42,262 bases of DNA from Atopostipes sp. (GTDB lineage: Bacteria; Bacillota; Bacilli; Lactobacillales; Carnobacteriaceae_A): assembly GCA_029257245.1 (NCBI GenBank), contig JARICH010000014.1:1-42262 (forward strand), given 5' to 3'. The notes under the pieces were generated by a model that made no database searches, was not told where the DNA came from, and saw only the letters and a program-made list of their open reading frames with translations. A program made the translations under genes and the position numbers. Below, in pieces: positions 1 to 42,262 of the stretch; positions within the stretch are counted from its first letter, which is position 1; each line of letters starts with the position of its first letter.

Positions 1-1049
1 GATATTACTGGGTAGTTGAAAATGCTAAGGGAACAATTACAAGTGCAAGAGCGGTTCCTTTTGGATTGACTCTTCCATTTACAAATCTAACAGGAGATGG
101 TTTTTTAAGAGCAATTAAAGTCTATCCAAAGAACACATTGACAACAAGTGTACCTGATATTGAAAAAACAGTTGATGAATCAAATGTAGCAATTGGTCAA
201 ATAAATACCTGGAAAATTACACTAAATATTCCAGTAGGTATCGAAGATTATGACAAATTTGAGTTTTATGATCAATTAGATACTCGTCTTGATTATGTTG
301 CTGATTCATTAGTTATAAATGCTGGAAACATCAACTTATTAGCAGGCGATGATTACAACCTTACCTTAGCTAATGGTCGACTAGATGTTAAATTTACAGC
401 GGCCGGTCTTGCTAAATTAGCCAATATAACATCAGATCCAAAAGTCGTCACATTTACTCTTCAAACAAAAGTAAATAGCACAGCGATTATGGGACAAGAA
501 ATTCCAAACAGTGCCACTTTAACATTCAATAACAGTCACGGTTCTGATAAAACGAAAACACCGGATGACATTCCAGAAGTACACACAGGTGGTAAAGCTT
601 TCGTGAAAAAAGCGAATGGCGAAAATGGTGCAATTTTAGCAGGTGCAGAATTTAAGATTAAAAGAGGCGAACAATTTGTCAATCTAGCGGCAGATGGCAC
701 AGTTACTTTTGGTGGTAATGGAACAGTCTTCAAATCAGATGCCAATGGCAAGTTTGAAGTCAAAGGACTACCATACGGAAGCTACGTTTTAGTAGAAACA
801 AAAGCTCCAACAGGATACGCTCTACCAACAAATCCTGAAACTCCATTTGAAGTGGATGCAAGTTCATACTACTCAGATCCAACTAAAGTTGAAACAGGAA
901 GTGCACCAGCAGATGTGATTAAAACAATTCTTAACCGCAAAATGACAATCCCACAAACAGGTGGTATTGGTACCGCACTATTCACAATAATTGGTGCAGT
1001 GATGATGGTATTCTCAGCCGCTTTTTACAGAAAAACGAAAAAAGCTTAA
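1..1049 (+). CDS. Backbone pilin, LPXTG-type (5' partial)
   Basis: The frame is open from base 3, so the gene starts upstream of the window; the first in-window start-like codon (TTG at 66) is internal. The product is a sortase-anchored major pilin. Seen: a pilin motif VYPKN at 120-134, whose lysine (codon 129-131) would be joined to the next subunit; a region resembling the D2 isopeptide-forming fold; a Cna-B/SpaA-like domain ending in an E-box (YxLxE..AP.GY type, about 770-830); the sorting signal IPQTG at 948-962; a hydrophobic segment; and a basic tail RKTKKA. Pilin motif, E-box and sorting signal together define the backbone subunit of sortase C pili. The three sortase genes follow directly. 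The tip and basal pilins are probably upstream, outside the window. Confidence 0.9.
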   Translation, partial: YYWVVENAKGTITSARAVPFGLTLPFTNLTGDGFLRAIKVYPKNTLTTSVPDIEKTVDESNVAIGQINTWKITLNIPVGIEDYDKFEFYDQLDTRLDYVADSLVINAGNINLLAGDDYNLTLANGRLDVKFTAAGLAKLANITSDPKVVTFTLQTKVNSTAIMGQEIPNSATLTFNNSHGSDKTKTPDDIPEVHTGGKAFVKKANGENGAILAGAEFKIKRGEQFVNLAADGTVTFGGNGTVFKSDANGKFEVKGLPYGSYVLVETKAPTGYALPTNPETPFEVDASSYYSDPTKVETGSAPADVIKTILNRKMTIPQTGGIGTALFTIIGAVMMVFSAAFYRKTKKA

Positions 1050-1094
1050 AGAATATACTTTTAGTAAACAAGGATAACTAGCCAGAAAGAGTGT

Positions 1095-1135
1095 GGAGTT
1101 AAAACTATTAAAAACTAGTTTTAACTCCCTTTTTT
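1095..1135 (+). terminator. Intra-operon terminator between pilin and sortases
   Basis: A perfect 13-bp stem GGAGTTAAAACTA (1095-1107) pairs with TAGTTTTAACTCC (1116-1128) around an 8-nt loop and is followed by six T (1130-1135). It lies 46 bases after the pilin stop and just before the ribosome-binding site of the first sortase gene. It looks like a complete intrinsic terminator that would limit read-through into the sortases. Confidence 0.85.
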
Positions 1136-1155
1136 CCGAAAGGACTGTGATATCA

Positions 1156-2016
1156 ATGGAAAATAAAAAGCCTAATAAAACGATCACCCCCTACATCATG
1201 TTCGTTTTTTTTACGATCGGCTTTTTAATCATGATTTATCCGTTGATATCACGTACATATTATGATTATCGTGGGAATGAAGCTATCGATGATTTTCAGG
1301 AAGAACTTGCAGACATGCCGACAGTAGATCTGCAGGAAAAATTACAACTCGCTTACGCTTATAATAATGCACTGCTTTCTGGGGATGAGCGACCATTAGG
1401 CGATCCATTTAGTGAAGAAGAAAAAGAAGAAGGCGTTGCTGATTATGCTCATTTACTCGAGATGAATGAAAAAATAGGTGTTTTAACGATTCCAAGAATC
1501 AATACTATATTTCCGGTCTATGCCGGAGTTAGTGAGAAGGTACTGCAAAAAGGAGTCGGGCATATGGAAGGAAGCTCACTTCCAATTGGAGGTCTAAATA
1601 CCCATTCAGTTTTAACCGCTCACCGTGGTCTTCCTGAAAATAAATTGTTTACAGACTTAGATAAGATGCAGTTAGATGATTTATTTTTTATTGAAACAAT
1701 CGCTGGACAATTAGCCTATAAAGTTATTGAGATTCAAGTGATTGAACCGACAGCTATTGAAGAATTAAGTATCCAACAAAATAAAGACCTCGTTACTTTA
1801 TTAACTTGTACGCCATATATGATCAATTCCCACCGCTTGATTGTGCTAGGGGAGCGGACAAAATTACCTGTTAAAGAGCAAGAAAAACTCACCGAAATTA
1901 GTTGGTGGAATCGTTTGTTGAGTCTTTTGAGTGGTTACATTTGGATAGTCCTAGTGATGCTAGTCATGTTATTATTTATTGGAAGAAGGATCTGGAAAAA
2001 GATAAGGGGGGAGTAA
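1156..2016 (+). CDS. Class C sortase (pilus polymerase) 1
   Basis: 286-residue membrane-bound transpeptidase. The chosen ATG has AAAGGA at 1139-1144; the longer frame from GTG 1093 is rejected because it runs through the terminator stem. An N-terminal membrane segment (about residues 12-32) is followed by a lid motif DPF at 83-85, the blocking loop typical of pilus sortases. The catalytic residues are His156 (TAHRGLP), Cys218 (LLTCTP) and Arg227 (SHR). A second membrane segment near the C terminus leaves a basic tail. It probably links backbone pilins through the VYPKN lysine of the upstream gene. It is clearly paralogous to the third sortase (DPY lid, same EEEK/R-EEGV region and same TCTPYMINSHR core), so a duplication is likely. 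Confidence 0.93.
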   Translation: MENKKPNKTITPYIMFVFFTIGFLIMIYPLISRTYYDYRGNEAIDDFQEELADMPTVDLQEKLQLAYAYNNALLSGDERPLGDPFSEEEKEEGVADYAHLLEMNEKIGVLTIPRINTIFPVYAGVSEKVLQKGVGHMEGSSLPIGGLNTHSVLTAHRGLPENKLFTDLDKMQLDDLFFIETIAGQLAYKVIEIQVIEPTAIEELSIQQNKDLVTLLTCTPYMINSHRLIVLGERTKLPVKEQEKLTEISWWNRLLSLLSGYIWIVLVMLVMLLFIGRRIWKKIRGE

Positions 2017-2017
2017 G

Positions 2018-2938
2018 ATGAAAACCAAGAAAAGAATCAGCATCCTATTATTTATAATAGGCTTTGGTATCTTCTTGTACCCCTTCATCTCACGAACTTT
2101 TTATGATATTTACTTCCGAAGTGAAGCAGAAAAGATAACGGAGAGTTTTGTCAACGATGAGCTTTCTGAGACCCTTTATAATGAACAAGTCGCTTATAAT
2201 CAATCAGAAATTTCAAATCCAGAGGAAATTGAGCAAGCAGAAGTTAGTTTTGTGGAAGAGAGTTCATCCGAAGCGGAAAATATTGATTATTTAGCGAATG
2301 AAAATGTATTAGGAATTGTCTCAGCTCCGGCGATTAATTTAGTTTACCCAATCTATGATGGAGCCACTCATCAAAACCTATTAGATGGGGTCGCAAGAAT
2401 TGAAGGTACGAGTTATCCGGTTGGAGGAATCAATACAAATAGTGTCATTGCGGGCCATAATGGTTTAGCTGGTCGTACTTATTTTTCCAATATAAAAAAA
2501 TTAGCTACAGGAGATTTGATTAAAATACAAAACCGGAAAGAAATTTTAACTTATGAAGTGTATGGAACAGCAGTTATTGCACCTGATGATTTACCAGCAT
2601 TGGCAGTTGTTCCTGGACAAGACACTGTCACCTTATTAACTTGTACTTGGCCTCCACCAGGCACCCATCGTTATTTAGTTTACGCAAAGAGAGTCTCCAA
2701 TCAAGAGAAAGATGATCAAGTTTTCACTAGTAACCAAGAGTCAGGAATAGAAGGTCAAAAGGAAGCAGTAAATAATATCGAAGCTTCTCAGGAAATTACT
2801 TTTGATAGGGAATCAATTTTATTAAAATTAGAGGAAACTTTAGAAAAAATGGATCAGATGGCTAGACGTTATGGTGTACTCATATCGTTGACATTACTTG
2901 CTGGCTCAGCAGTCTATTTTATTTTTATACGAGAATAA
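2018..2938 (+). CDS. Divergent lid-less sortase
   Basis: 306-residue sortase. It starts one base after the previous stop, with GGGGGGAG overlapping that stop as the ribosome-binding site. The N-terminal membrane segment ends in YPFISRTFYD, as in the neighbouring class C enzymes. The catalytic residues are His147 (AGHNGL), Cys209 (LLTCTW) and Arg218 (THR). There is no DP-aromatic lid; its place is taken by an acidic, glutamate-rich stretch (about residues 55-85). Cys209 is followed by WPPPG, unlike the TPYMINSHR of its neighbours. A glutamine/glutamate-rich extension and a C-terminal membrane segment follow the catalytic domain. The role could be to attach a minor or basal pilin, or to anchor the finished pilus to the wall; that is inference. 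Confidence 0.88.
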   Translation: MKTKKRISILLFIIGFGIFLYPFISRTFYDIYFRSEAEKITESFVNDELSETLYNEQVAYNQSEISNPEEIEQAEVSFVEESSSEAENIDYLANENVLGIVSAPAINLVYPIYDGATHQNLLDGVARIEGTSYPVGGINTNSVIAGHNGLAGRTYFSNIKKLATGDLIKIQNRKEILTYEVYGTAVIAPDDLPALAVVPGQDTVTLLTCTWPPPGTHRYLVYAKRVSNQEKDDQVFTSNQESGIEGQKEAVNNIEASQEITFDRESILLKLEETLEKMDQMARRYGVLISLTLLAGSAVYFIFIRE

Positions 2939-2963
2939 GATATATAAGAGAGAAGGGAGAATA

Positions 2964-3830
2964 ATGAAAGACAATAAAAACATTTTTTTTAAAAATAAAG
3001 GACTATTAGTATTAGGCCTAGGGCTTCTTCTAGGTTTGGCTTTTATCCTCTATCCATTTTTCTCCCAACTTTTTTATGATTATGGAGCCATATCTGAAGT
3101 AACCGATTTTCAAGAAACCGTTCAAGCGATTGATCCACCGGAATTAAAAGAAGAAAATGTCCGCTTAGCGGAAGCATATAATGAAGCACTAGAGCCAAAT
3201 ATACGTTGGATTGATCCTTATTCAGAAGAAGAGCGTGAAGAAGGTGTGGAGACTTATGCGGAGATGTTAAAGGTCAAAGAAAAAATTGGAGTTGTCCATA
3301 TTCCAAAAATAAATATTTCCTTACCTCTTTATGCAGGTACTGCGGAAAGTATTTTACAAAAAGGTGTTGGGCATTTAGAAGGAACTTCTTTACCGGTAGG
3401 AGGTAAGAGTACTCATAGTGTGGTGACAGCTCACAGAGGGTTACCAGAAGCCCGATTATTTACGGATTTAGATAAAATGGAGCTTGGCGATATCTTTTCT
3501 CTTGAAACAATGGCTGGAGAGTTATTTTATAAAGTGGATCAAATTGAGGTTGTTGCACCCGATGAAACGGATAAAGTAAAAATTATTGAAGGAAAAGATT
3601 ACTTAACTTTACTCACTTGTACTCCATATATGATTAATTCACATCGTTTATTGGTTAGAGGTGTTCGCACCAATCCACCAGCTGCTGAAGAATTAAAAGT
3701 AATAAAAAATCAACAAGAAAAAGATCTTTCTTATTACTTAAAGACTTATTGGCACTATCTGCTAATTGTTTTCATCAGCTTAACTAGTGTGATTGGAATT
3801 CTTATTTGGCAGGATAGACAAGAGAAATGA
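2964..3830 (+). CDS. Class C sortase (pilus polymerase) 2
   Basis: 288 residues from ATG 2964, which follows AGAAGGGAGA; an earlier in-frame start at 2898 lies inside the preceding gene and has no such site. Features: N-terminal membrane segment, lid DPY at 84-86, catalytic His157 (TAHRGLP), Cys219 (LLTCTP), an SHR arginine nine residues later, and a C-terminal membrane segment (LLIVFISLTSVIGILIW). Close paralogue of the first sortase gene. Two class C enzymes in one locus usually divide the work between backbone polymerisation and accessory pilin addition. It is the last gene of the locus and is followed by a terminator. Confidence 0.93.
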   Translation: MKDNKNIFFKNKGLLVLGLGLLLGLAFILYPFFSQLFYDYGAISEVTDFQETVQAIDPPELKEENVRLAEAYNEALEPNIRWIDPYSEEEREEGVETYAEMLKVKEKIGVVHIPKINISLPLYAGTAESILQKGVGHLEGTSLPVGGKSTHSVVTAHRGLPEARLFTDLDKMELGDIFSLETMAGELFYKVDQIEVVAPDETDKVKIIEGKDYLTLLTCTPYMINSHRLLVRGVRTNPPAAEELKVIKNQQEKDLSYYLKTYWHYLLIVFISLTSVIGILIWQDRQEK

Positions 3831-24540: not shown

Positions 24541-25635
24541 TTAGGAAATAATATGCAAGTCTTTACTGGTAGTTGTGAAGGACTGACAAGCATCTTTTGT
24601 TACGTAAACACAATCTTCTAAACGAATCCCAATCTCATCTTCAATATAAATACCGGGTTCGATTGAAAAACACATTCCTTCTTTTAAGATGGTGTCATTT
24701 GCCTCGTTAATACTAGGAAATTCATGGGCTGTTTTTCCGATACCATGACCTAAGCGGTGAGTAAAGTAATCGCCATAACCAGCATCTTCGATAACTTTTC
24801 GTGCGATTTGGTCTAGTGTACCTGCCCGTATTCCTGGTTTGACAGCTTCTTGCGCTTTTTCTTGAGCCTTTCGTACAATAGCATATAGCTCATTTGCTCT
24901 TTCATTAGGTTCACCGAATGCCACCATTCGAGTAACATCACTCGCATATCCATCAATAATAACCCCTAAGTCAAATAAGACGAGCTCATTTTTCTTCAGT
25001 TTTCTTTCACCTGGGTTACCGTGTGGACTTGCTGCATGATCACCAAACAAGACAAGTGTTGAGAAACTCATTTCACTGACGCCTCTTTTTTTCATTTCCA
25101 TATCAATTTCAGCAGCAACTTCTTGTTCTGTAATACCTTCTTTAAGTAATTTTCTACCGATTTCAAGCGCTTCATCTGCTAACTTTCCAGCGACAAGCAT
25201 CTTTTCAATTTCATCCTCTGTTTTGACTAAACGCATTTGTTCAATAAAACTAGTGATATTTGTAAAATTATCCGTGTTAAAATAATTTTGTAAATTGAAA
25301 TAACGCTCAACTGTTAAATTACCCTCATCCACAGCAATTAGATTCACCTGATCGACGAGCTTTTCTGCTTCATTTTGGATAATTAACCATGGATCTTCAT
25401 CATCTGTATAAGAATAGACATTATCAACATTTGACTGTTGCACTGCTTCACTTTCTTCTAAACTGGGTACAAAAAGAAAATGATCGTCTTGTGTAACGAC
25501 GTAAGCGACTATTCTTTCATGAGGATTGCTTTCAAAGTTTGTAAAATAGGCAACACTGTTTGGATTATCTTGATATACAAGATCAATCTTCTGATCAACC
25601 ATTTGTTTTTGTAATGCCATTAATTTTTTATTCAT
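24541..25635 (-). CDS. pepQ: Xaa-Pro dipeptidase (M24)
   Basis: 364 residues; TTAGGAGC precedes the ATG on the minus strand. An N-terminal creatinase-like domain (about 1-125) precedes the pita-bread M24 domain. Metal ligands seen: Asp in LFDLGVIIDGYASDVTR (two), His in HRLGHGIG, Glu in SIEPGIY and Glu in GIRLED. It cleaves dipeptides ending in proline inside the cell. It is divergent from ccpA, an arrangement known from lactobacilli, so carbon control by CcpA is likely through the shared intergenic region. Confidence 0.92.
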   Translation of the reverse strand: MNKKLMALQKQMVDQKIDLVYQDNPNSVAYFTNFESNPHERIVAYVVTQDDHFLFVPSLEESEAVQQSNVDNVYSYTDDEDPWLIIQNEAEKLVDQVNLIAVDEGNLTVERYFNLQNYFNTDNFTNITSFIEQMRLVKTEDEIEKMLVAGKLADEALEIGRKLLKEGITEQEVAAEIDMEMKKRGVSEMSFSTLVLFGDHAASPHGNPGERKLKKNELVLFDLGVIIDGYASDVTRMVAFGEPNERANELYAIVRKAQEKAQEAVKPGIRAGTLDQIARKVIEDAGYGDYFTHRLGHGIGKTAHEFPSINEANDTILKEGMCFSIEPGIYIEDEIGIRLEDCVYVTKDACQSFTTTSKDLHIIS

Positions 25636-34508: not shown

Positions 34509-35237
34509 ATGGCAGGTCATTCAAAATGGAACAATATAAAACAGAGAAAAGGTGCACAAGATAAGAAAAAAGGGAAAATTTTCCAGCGTTTAGTAAAAGA
34601 AATTTATCAAGCGGCTAAAGATGGTGGAGCTGACATGGGGACAAACTCTGCATTGCGCTTAGCAGTGGATAATGCGAGAGATAATAATATGCCTAAAGAT
34701 AATATTGATCGGGCAATTAAAAGAGCAACAGACCCTAGCGCAAGTGCAAACTATAGTGAAATCATCTACGAAGGGTATGGACCAAATGGTGTAGCTATTC
34801 TAGTCGAAACTTTAACAGATAATACCAATCGAACAAGTACGAGTGTGCGAACAGCTTTTACTAAAAATAAAGGTACACTAGGTGAAAAAGGTACGGTTAG
34901 TTACATGTTTGAACGCAAAGGCTATATTGCAATTGAACGCGAAGGTTTAGATGTAGATGAAGATACGATGTTAATGACCGTGCTTGAAATAGGTGCGGAA
35001 GATTTAGAAACTTCTGAGGAAGTTTTTGAAATTTATACTGCTCGGGAAGATTTTGCAGCGGTTCGTGAAGAACTTAAAAAAGACTTTGAGTTAGCAGAAG
35101 CTGATTTAATAATGGTGCCAAATATTCATGTACCCGTTGACGAAGAGACAGCTGAAAAGATTCATCAGTTGGTTGATGTTCTAGAAGACGACGATGATGT
35201 GAATGATGTTTACCACAATGCAGAATTTGCTGAGTGA
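34509..35237 (+). CDS. yebC: YebC/TACO1-family protein
   Basis: 242 residues, ATG 34509 with AAGGACG before it. The family opening MAGHSKWNNIKQRKGAQD and the motif YEGYGPNGVAILVE are intact; three domains with an acidic C-terminal part. Long annotated as a transcription regulator; recent work on YebC-type proteins points to a role at ribosomes stalled on proline-rich sequences. The direct role here is inferred from the family. It is a single-gene unit with its own promoter and terminator. Confidence 0.94.
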   Translation: MAGHSKWNNIKQRKGAQDKKKGKIFQRLVKEIYQAAKDGGADMGTNSALRLAVDNARDNNMPKDNIDRAIKRATDPSASANYSEIIYEGYGPNGVAILVETLTDNTNRTSTSVRTAFTKNKGTLGEKGTVSYMFERKGYIAIEREGLDVDEDTMLMTVLEIGAEDLETSEEVFEIYTAREDFAAVREELKKDFELAEADLIMVPNIHVPVDEETAEKIHQLVDVLEDDDDVNDVYHNAEFAE

Positions 35238-39648: not shown

Positions 39649-40710
39649 ATGATACGTGTAGATAAAGTAAGAGAAAAATTAGCCGATAAAAAAATTGATG
39701 CTTTTTTAGTAACTAATATGCATAATATTCGCTACTTAGCAAAATTTACTGGGTCAACGGGACTAGTATTAATTACTCAAGAGCAGGCCTATTTTATAAC
39801 TGATTTTAGATATACTGAACAGGCAGCAACTGAAGCCATTGGCTTTGAGATTGTGAAAAATGAAGGCTTGATTTATAAAGAAGTTGCCCGAATAGTAGCA
39901 GAAGACGGAATTAAAAATTTAGCTTTTGAGGAAACGGATGTCAGTTATTCTTTATATAAACAATTAACGGATTTAATTAGTGCTGAACTTCAACCACTTT
40001 CAGGTATTGTAGAAAAAATACGAGAAGTAAAATCTGAGGATGAAATTGAGACGATTCAAAAAGCGGTAGAAATCACAGAAAAAGCCTACGATTATATATT
40101 AGGTTTTGTAAAAGCAGGGGTTACGGAAATTGAGCTCGCTAATAAATTAGATTTTTATATGAGAAAATTAGGGGCAAGTGGCGTATCATTTGATACGATT
40201 GTAGCCAGTGGTGTTCGATCAGCTATGCCACACGGGGTTGCAAGTAATAAAGTAATCGAAGAAGGAGATATGGTAACCATCGACTTTGGTTGTATCTATA
40301 ATGGCTATGTCTCTGATATGACTCGAACCTTTGCTGTGGGGGATCCCGGCGTCAAATTGAAAGAAATCTATGAGATTGTTTACCAAGCAAATAAAAAAGT
40401 TACAGAAGCAGCAAAGGCTGGAGTAACAGGTGCTGAATTAGATAAAGTTGCACGAGATTATATCGCCCAGCATGGTTATGGAGACCAGTTCGGTCATTCA
40501 ACTGGACATGGAATTGGTTTAGAAGTCCATGAAGGACCAGCTATCAGTAGTAAGAATGATGAACCGTTAGTAGTGAACAATGTCATCACAAATGAACCGG
40601 GTATTTATTTACCAGGACTAGGTGGCGTTCGGATTGAAGATGATTTAGTTATAACCAAAGATGGAAATCGTAATTTAATGACTTCATCAAAAGAGCTCAT
40701 CATTTTATAA
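39649..40710 (+). CDS. Xaa-Pro aminopeptidase, M24 (PepP-like)
   Basis: 353 residues, ATG 39649 with AGGAAGGTG before it. Creatinase-like N-terminal domain (about 1-125) and an M24 catalytic domain with metal ligands Asp in TIDFGCIYNGYVSDMTR (two), His in FGHSTGHGIG, Glu in ITNEPGIY and Glu in GVRIEDD. It removes the N-terminal residue before a proline. It is a paralogue of the pepQ product at 24541. The place directly before efp is the well-known yqhT-efp order of Firmicutes. Confidence 0.92.
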   Translation: MIRVDKVREKLADKKIDAFLVTNMHNIRYLAKFTGSTGLVLITQEQAYFITDFRYTEQAATEAIGFEIVKNEGLIYKEVARIVAEDGIKNLAFEETDVSYSLYKQLTDLISAELQPLSGIVEKIREVKSEDEIETIQKAVEITEKAYDYILGFVKAGVTEIELANKLDFYMRKLGASGVSFDTIVASGVRSAMPHGVASNKVIEEGDMVTIDFGCIYNGYVSDMTRTFAVGDPGVKLKEIYEIVYQANKKVTEAAKAGVTGAELDKVARDYIAQHGYGDQFGHSTGHGIGLEVHEGPAISSKNDEPLVVNNVITNEPGIYLPGLGGVRIEDDLVITKDGNRNLMTSSKELIIL

Positions 40711-40795: not shown

Positions 40796-41353
40796 ATGAT
40801 TTCATCAAATGAATTTAAAAGAGGCCTAACGATTATATATAAAGATAATCTATGGCAAATTGTTGAGTTTGAACATGTTAACCCAGGAAGAGGACAGGCT
40901 TTTGTCCGTAGTAAATTGAGAAATTTGCGAACAGGTGCGAATCAAGAAGTCACATTTCGTGCTTCTGAAAAAGTAGAGACTGCTCACATTGATCGAAACC
41001 AAATGCAGTATCTTTATGAAGATGATGGAATGCACATTTTTATGGATGTTTCGACCTATGAACAAGTAGGTGTTCCAGAAGCACAAATTAAAGATGAATT
41101 AAAGTTTTTAAAAGATAATATGGAAGTTCAACTGGTTAGTTACGAAGGAGAAGTCATTGGATTGGAGTTGCCAAGTAAAGTAGAGCTAGAAGTTATTGCT
41201 ACTGAACCTGGTATTCGAGGCGACACGCAAAGTGGTGGATCTAAACCAGCGACTCTTGAAACTGGTGCAGTAATTATTGTGCCTCTTTTTGTGAATGTTG
41301 GAGATATACTCGAAGTAAATACGGAAGATAGTAGCTATAGTTCACGTGTTTAA
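40796..41353 (+). CDS. efp: Elongation factor P, with Arg at the tip
   Basis: 185 residues, normal length, ATG 40796 with AAGGGTG before it. Three beta-barrel domains: KOW-like domain I (1-65), OB domain II (about 66-128) and domain III (129-185, ending [17 protein letters not shown]). EF-P binds between P and E sites and relieves stalling at polyproline. The loop tip that is modified in most bacteria reads NPGRGQAF: Arg32 (codon AGA) stands where B. subtilis and E. coli have lysine. All other conserved features, such as the [15 protein letters not shown] stretch, are intact. Confidence 0.96.
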
Positions 41354-41371: not shown

Positions 41372-41788
41372 ATGATTGAGACCTCAGGAAAGAATAATCC
41401 ATTAGGGGAAATTAAAGTTTCAGCAGAAGTGCTAGAAGTCATTGTTAGCTTCGCCACTTTAGAAGTTGATGGTGTCTATGGAATGCATAAAAATTTAACG
41501 AGTGATATCCGAACAATGTTTGGTCGTAATGAACATACAAAAGGTGTCACACTTCATGCGGATGAGTTCGGAACAGAAATTGATATTTATTGTTATTTTG
41601 ACTACGGCGTTAATGTACCTAAAGTAGCTATAAATATTCAAGAAAATGTAAAAGAACAAATTTATCATATGACTGAGATTGAAATTGATGAAGTCCATGT
41701 TCACATTGTAGGGATTATACCAAAAGAATCAACAGCGATAGATGTATTGAGAGCTAGCGATTTAGAATTAGGGGAAGAGATGAATTGA
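41372..41788 (+). CDS. yqhY: Asp23/Gls24 family protein (YqhY)
   Basis: 138 residues, ATG 41372 with AAAGGAGG before it. The Asp23 domain is recognised by LGEIKVSAEVLEVIVSFATLEVDGVYGM (core SAEVLE and EVDGVYGM) and VNVPKVAINIQENVKEQIYHMTEIEIDEVHVHIVGI. In B. subtilis, loss of the homologue disturbs acetyl-CoA carboxylase control. Its place between efp and nusB is conserved. The stop overlaps the nusB start (ATGA). Confidence 0.92.
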   Translation: MIETSGKNNPLGEIKVSAEVLEVIVSFATLEVDGVYGMHKNLTSDIRTMFGRNEHTKGVTLHADEFGTEIDIYCYFDYGVNVPKVAINIQENVKEQIYHMTEIEIDEVHVHIVGIIPKESTAIDVLRASDLELGEEMN

Positions 41789-42262
41789 TGACTGTAAGAC
41801 GAACGATTAGAGTAAAAGCTTTTCAAGCACTATTTCAGCTAGCACACAATTATAAGATAAGTAAAGAAGATGCAATAAAATTTGCTATTAACTATTCTTT
41901 AGAGTTAGAGGAAGAAGAGTTAGAGGAATTAAGTGAATTAGAAGCTTTAAAAGCTAGTTTACCTATAGATAATCCAAGTGATGAACTAGCAGTTGATAGT
42001 TTAATTTATTTGAAAGATTTAGTTTTAGGAGTCAAAGCTAAAGAAGAATTTCTAGATGAAGAAATCAGCAAGCGACTGCAAAACTGGTCGATTCACCGAA
42101 TAGAATTAACTACTTTGCTTATTTTAAGAATTGCGGCATATGAGTTATATTTTCATGAAGAAATTGATCCAAGTATTGTCATGAATGAAGCGATTGAATT
42201 AACAAAATCCTTTAATAACGAAAATGCAAGTAAATTTGTTAATGGAGTGCTTCAAGGGATTT
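41788..42262 (+). CDS. nusB: Transcription antitermination factor NusB (3' partial)
   Basis: The ATG at 41788 shares four bases (ATGA) with the yqhY stop; the frame is open to the end of the window, 158 codons. The opening MTVRRTIRVKAFQALFQL and the end EAIELTKSFNNENASKFVNGVLQGI (core KFVNGVLQGI) are NusB signatures. NusB with NusE (S10) binds boxA and supports rRNA transcription. Its middle is richer in glutamate than usual (LELEEEELEELSELEA). Confidence 0.94.
   Translation, partial: MTVRRTIRVKAFQALFQLAHNYKISKEDAIKFAINYSLELEEEELEELSELEALKASLPIDNPSDELAVDSLIYLKDLVLGVKAKEEFLDEEISKRLQNWSIHRIELTTLLILRIAAYELYFHEEIDPSIVMNEAIELTKSFNNENASKFVNGVLQGI

Follow-up and report, generated by a model that had tools for sequence, protein, structure and literature searches.

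The window analyzed here, a stretch of 42,262 nucleotides from a draft genome of Atopostipes sp. (G000; 1.26 Mb in 120 contigs, 71% complete), encodes near its end an intact efp gene (40796..41353, + strand) for an elongation factor P (EF-P) of 185 aa. This protein qualifies as an EF-P based on a full-length match to the NCBIfam efp model above the curated cut-off (TIGR00038, 250 bits vs 185.8), is the single EF-P found in the G000 draft, and is 77.8% identical to the EF-P of its relatives G001 and G002. Its beta3-beta4 tip loop, which is of normal length, reads N29-P30-G31-R32-G33 (40880..40894, +), as compared to KPGKG in congeners, and the position that is modified in other EF-Ps is thus occupied by an arginine (Arg32, codon AGA, 40889..40891, +). 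A preliminary description of this DNA had pointed to this residue, and the codon and uninterrupted reading frame bear it out: the window does encode an EF-P with an arginine tip, and such an EF-P is uncommon.

The upstream neighbor of efp is a gene for an Xaa-Pro peptidase-like protein (39649..40710, +), found next to efp in relatives as well. The downstream neighbor (41372..41788, +) also lies in conserved synteny, and we take it to encode an Asp23-type protein, for which the NCBIfam match is weak and below cut-off. It is followed by a gene that continues past the end of the window (41785..42261, +), presumably nusB-like judging from its position. This order of peptidase, efp, Asp23-type gene, and nusB is common to the window and its relatives. 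The window includes two M24-type Xaa-Pro peptidase-like genes (24541-25635, -, and 39649-40710, +), of which just the latter adjoins efp. It also encodes a YebC/PmpR-family protein (34509-35237, +; 335 bits, cut-off 243); YebC2, a member of the same family, resolves polyproline stalls in B. subtilis. At the opposite end of the window, a gene at 3-3830 (+) encodes a surface protein with a C-terminal end resembling a sorting signal (IPQTGGIGTALF), and three related sortase-like proteins follow it in a row, all of these names being derived from the translations.

Within the family, the tip residue is a lysine in 25 of the 27 species and an arginine in two, namely G000 and G009, so that the possibility raised earlier of a residue common to the whole family does not hold. 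G009 belongs to another genus, is 99% complete, and displays a KHGRG loop in which the arginine codon is CGT, as opposed to AGA in G000 and AAA or AAG in the lysine-bearing relatives. A DNA pattern for arginine loops applied to 395 genomes of the order recovered the EF-Ps of G000 and G009 and no third arginine-tip EF-P, although this pattern is blind to loops of other composition. Across 398 genomes of the phylum, the same pattern identified g97, another Bacillota genus in which all four sampled species (L090-L093) encode a KPGRG protein confirmed as EF-P; for the pattern matches outside these three, an EF-P identity was not confirmed. One of them, a HYKHGRG match in G416, was dropped because the stretch around it contained no EF-P open reading frame. 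The KPGRG loop was also found in the EF-P of two Anaerolineales MAGs. Among the 1166 EF-Ps of a published collection, 14.75% carried an arginine, and a proline at position -2 was kept in 2.33% of those (PMC6544042), which makes an arginine tip together with a proline at -2 a rare combination. Separately, the EF-P of G004 (L037 1850-2416) is of a different type (HHKPGKGNTVMR), only 46% identical to the window EF-P and located in a different gene context, and is possibly a replacement of the usual efp of the family.

Given that a single base separates R32 from a lysine (AGA vs AAA) in a draft assembly of 120 contigs and 71% completeness, the arginine could in principle be a sequencing, assembly, or single-strain artefact. 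We consider this improbable, as the frame is intact, a second loop residue is changed as well (K29N), and a separate, 99%-complete genome (G009) has the same replacement with another codon. These two loop changes also stand out from the rest of the protein: across 66 columns that are invariant in 30 lysine-type relatives, G000 departs at two, K29N and K32R, both located in the beta3-beta4 loop (hypergeometric p ~0.007), and on this comparison they do not appear to be a random departure of the protein.

In a tree built from four genes, with positions 29, 30, and 32 of the loop masked, G000 is sister to the lysine-bearing G001 and G002, with the lysine-bearing G003 outside (support 98/94), and G009 is placed outside the genus of G000 (support 97/93), a placement weakened by long branches. 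Because lysine-bearing congeners flank G000 and G009 lies outside the genus, two independent lysine-to-arginine changes are the simplest reading. The dN/dS of efp between G000 and G001 is ~0.10, an approximate value since dS exceeds 1, and by this estimate efp is under purifying selection. This bears on a reading in which EF-P is losing its function and its loop drifting while YfmR or YebC2 carry the load. Both proteins can substitute for EF-P in B. subtilis (PMC11990639), and the concentration of changes at invariant residues within the functional loop would fit such a loss, yet the low dN/dS, the absence of any further loss of an invariant residue in G000, and an unreduced Pro-Pro content all argue against it, and we regard it as quite improbable. 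Specifically, the two arginine species had observed/expected Pro-Pro ratios of 0.59 and 0.70, vs 0.60-0.68 for the lysine species, in samples of 226 kb from G000 and ~320-400 kb from each of the other genomes. The depletion of Pro-Pro that a weak EF-P might leave behind was thus not seen in these sampled proteomes of arginine and lysine species, and therefore the need for an EF-P-like activity is not gone.

Searches for YmfI, EpmA, and EarP, as proposed in the preliminary description, detected none of these enzymes in G000. For the 5-aminopentanol pathway, YmfI (NF047420) was above cut-off in two of the 27 family genomes (G006 and G007) and in 59 of 128 order genomes, while full-length YnbB (PF06838) was detected in exactly the two family genomes that encode YmfI. 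Neither ymfI nor ynbB was found in G000 (71% complete), G001, or G009 (both 99%); absences in G000 alone are weak given its completeness, and we thus lean on G001 and G009. The best YmfI-like match in G000 is a FabG that is encoded within a fab/acc operon and shares 59% identity with its G006 counterpart, the comparison having been made to FabG only. In the lysine-bearing G013, ymfF/H-type genes are directly followed by ymfM-pgsA-cinA-recA (L137, contig C1, 7785-8082), so that the canonical ymfI slot stands empty, whereas ymfI adjoins ymfM in G007. EpmA was above cut-off in none of the 27 family genomes but did exceed it in two control genomes, and its sub-cut-off matches of ~505 aa look like lysyl-tRNA synthetase. 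Judging from these gene contents, the known lysine-modifying pathways (YmfI/YnbB and EpmA) are already missing in lysine-bearing relatives, including some of the same genus, and the arginine therefore abolished no pathway. The preliminary description was thus right in placing an arginine at the modified position, but not quite right in making this arginine what rules out a lysine modification here. Known EF-P modification systems are missing from more than half of bacteria (PMC6544042).

EarP was absent from the 13 family genomes searched (G000 and G009 together with 11 relatives), in a search that detected its positive control, the efp-earP-bearing Ilyobacter plasmid pILYOP01, at 331 bits; EarP was likewise not found in g97, in the Anaerolineales drafts tested, or in a Thermus composti control genome. 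With 71% of the G000 genome present, one could imagine that R32 is rhamnosylated by an EarP whose gene is not covered by the draft; this is highly improbable, however, since the 13 genomes lacking EarP include the 99%-complete G001 and G009 and the control was working, and since a proline at -2 has been described as incompatible with a rhamnosylation-type activation (PMC6544042). Modification of R32 by a different, undescribed enzyme had also been suggested; such an enzyme might, for instance, be another glycosyltransferase with arginine as substrate, and we view this reading as doubtful. Arginine arose twice independently in one family and is found without EarP in the four g97 species and two Anaerolineales MAGs, for which a shared enzyme is conceivable. 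On the other hand, no candidate adjoins efp in the window, where the peptidase, Asp23-type, and nusB neighbors are as in lysine species, and the loops NPGRG and KHGRG have no common recognition motif beyond GRG. The suggestion of an arginine-modifying enzyme is thus unsupported and keeps a small probability, and a single undescribed enzyme shared between R32 and the other arginine tips found without EarP is a little more doubtful still.

We consider it likely, with a probability of roughly 0.7, that efp was inherited vertically and encodes an ordinary EF-P in which an arginine, itself most likely unmodified, replaced the tip lysine after loss of the 5-aminopentanol pathway. The pathway would have been lost first in this lineage, and the change from lysine to arginine would have followed and become fixed once the lysine-modifying pathway was gone, leaving an EF-P that works with a bare arginine tip. 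Going from "no known enzyme" to "unmodified", we infer that R32 most likely carries no modification and that the protein is most likely active. The earlier idea that this EF-P may work unmodified is consistent with several reports: unmodified EF-P, K32R included, supports swarming in B. subtilis (PMC5885033), E. coli EfpL works with an arginine tip shown by MS to be unmodified (PMC11611912), and unmodified Arg32 EF-P has some, if minimal, function in N. meningitidis (PMC4739656). Against it, E. coli EF-P K34R retains only ~20% activity, vs 50% for the unmodified lysine (PMC6544042), so that an arginine without modification might serve poorly at the tip. A further point against it is that lysine is retained in 25 of 27 species, most without known pathways, which might reflect a lysine modification of an unknown kind in these species. 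Overall, a family in which the pathway has mostly been lost, lysine mostly kept, and arginine gained twice represents a natural test of two points, namely what role the modification plays and whether an unmodified basic residue suffices at the EF-P tip.

Among known systems, the 5-aminopentanol type of Bacillota (B. subtilis, S. aureus) has in common with the window EF-P its family, loop length, and proline at -2; the solved EF-Ps nearest to it in sequence, 6rk3 and 6rji, display a KPGKG loop. This type requires lysine 32 along with YmfI and YnbB, however, whereas the window EF-P carries Arg32 and neither enzyme was found in G000 or most of its family. Beta-lysyl EF-Ps combine a lysine tip with EpmA, whereas the window EF-P has an arginine tip and EpmA was not detected in G000. 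The EarP/rhamnosyl-arginine EF-Ps of Pseudomonas, Neisseria, and Ilyobacter have the same arginine tip, but with earP in the genome and no proline at -2, unlike G000, in which EarP was not found and P30 is kept. E. coli EfpL (YeiP) also works with an unmodified arginine tip, but has a longer loop and forms a separate clade, and the window EF-P scores 133 bits against its model (cut-off 216). Arginine tips without EarP are found in g97 and the two Anaerolineales MAGs, although arginine is present in all four g97 species seen while the closest congeners of G000 carry lysine. Thermus thermophilus EF-P (1ueb/4v6a) has an arginine tip as well, but in a KLGRGG loop without proline. Because other bacteria, such as Thermus, likewise combine an arginine tip with a lack of EarP, the window EF-P is a rare variant with known analogues rather than a new system.
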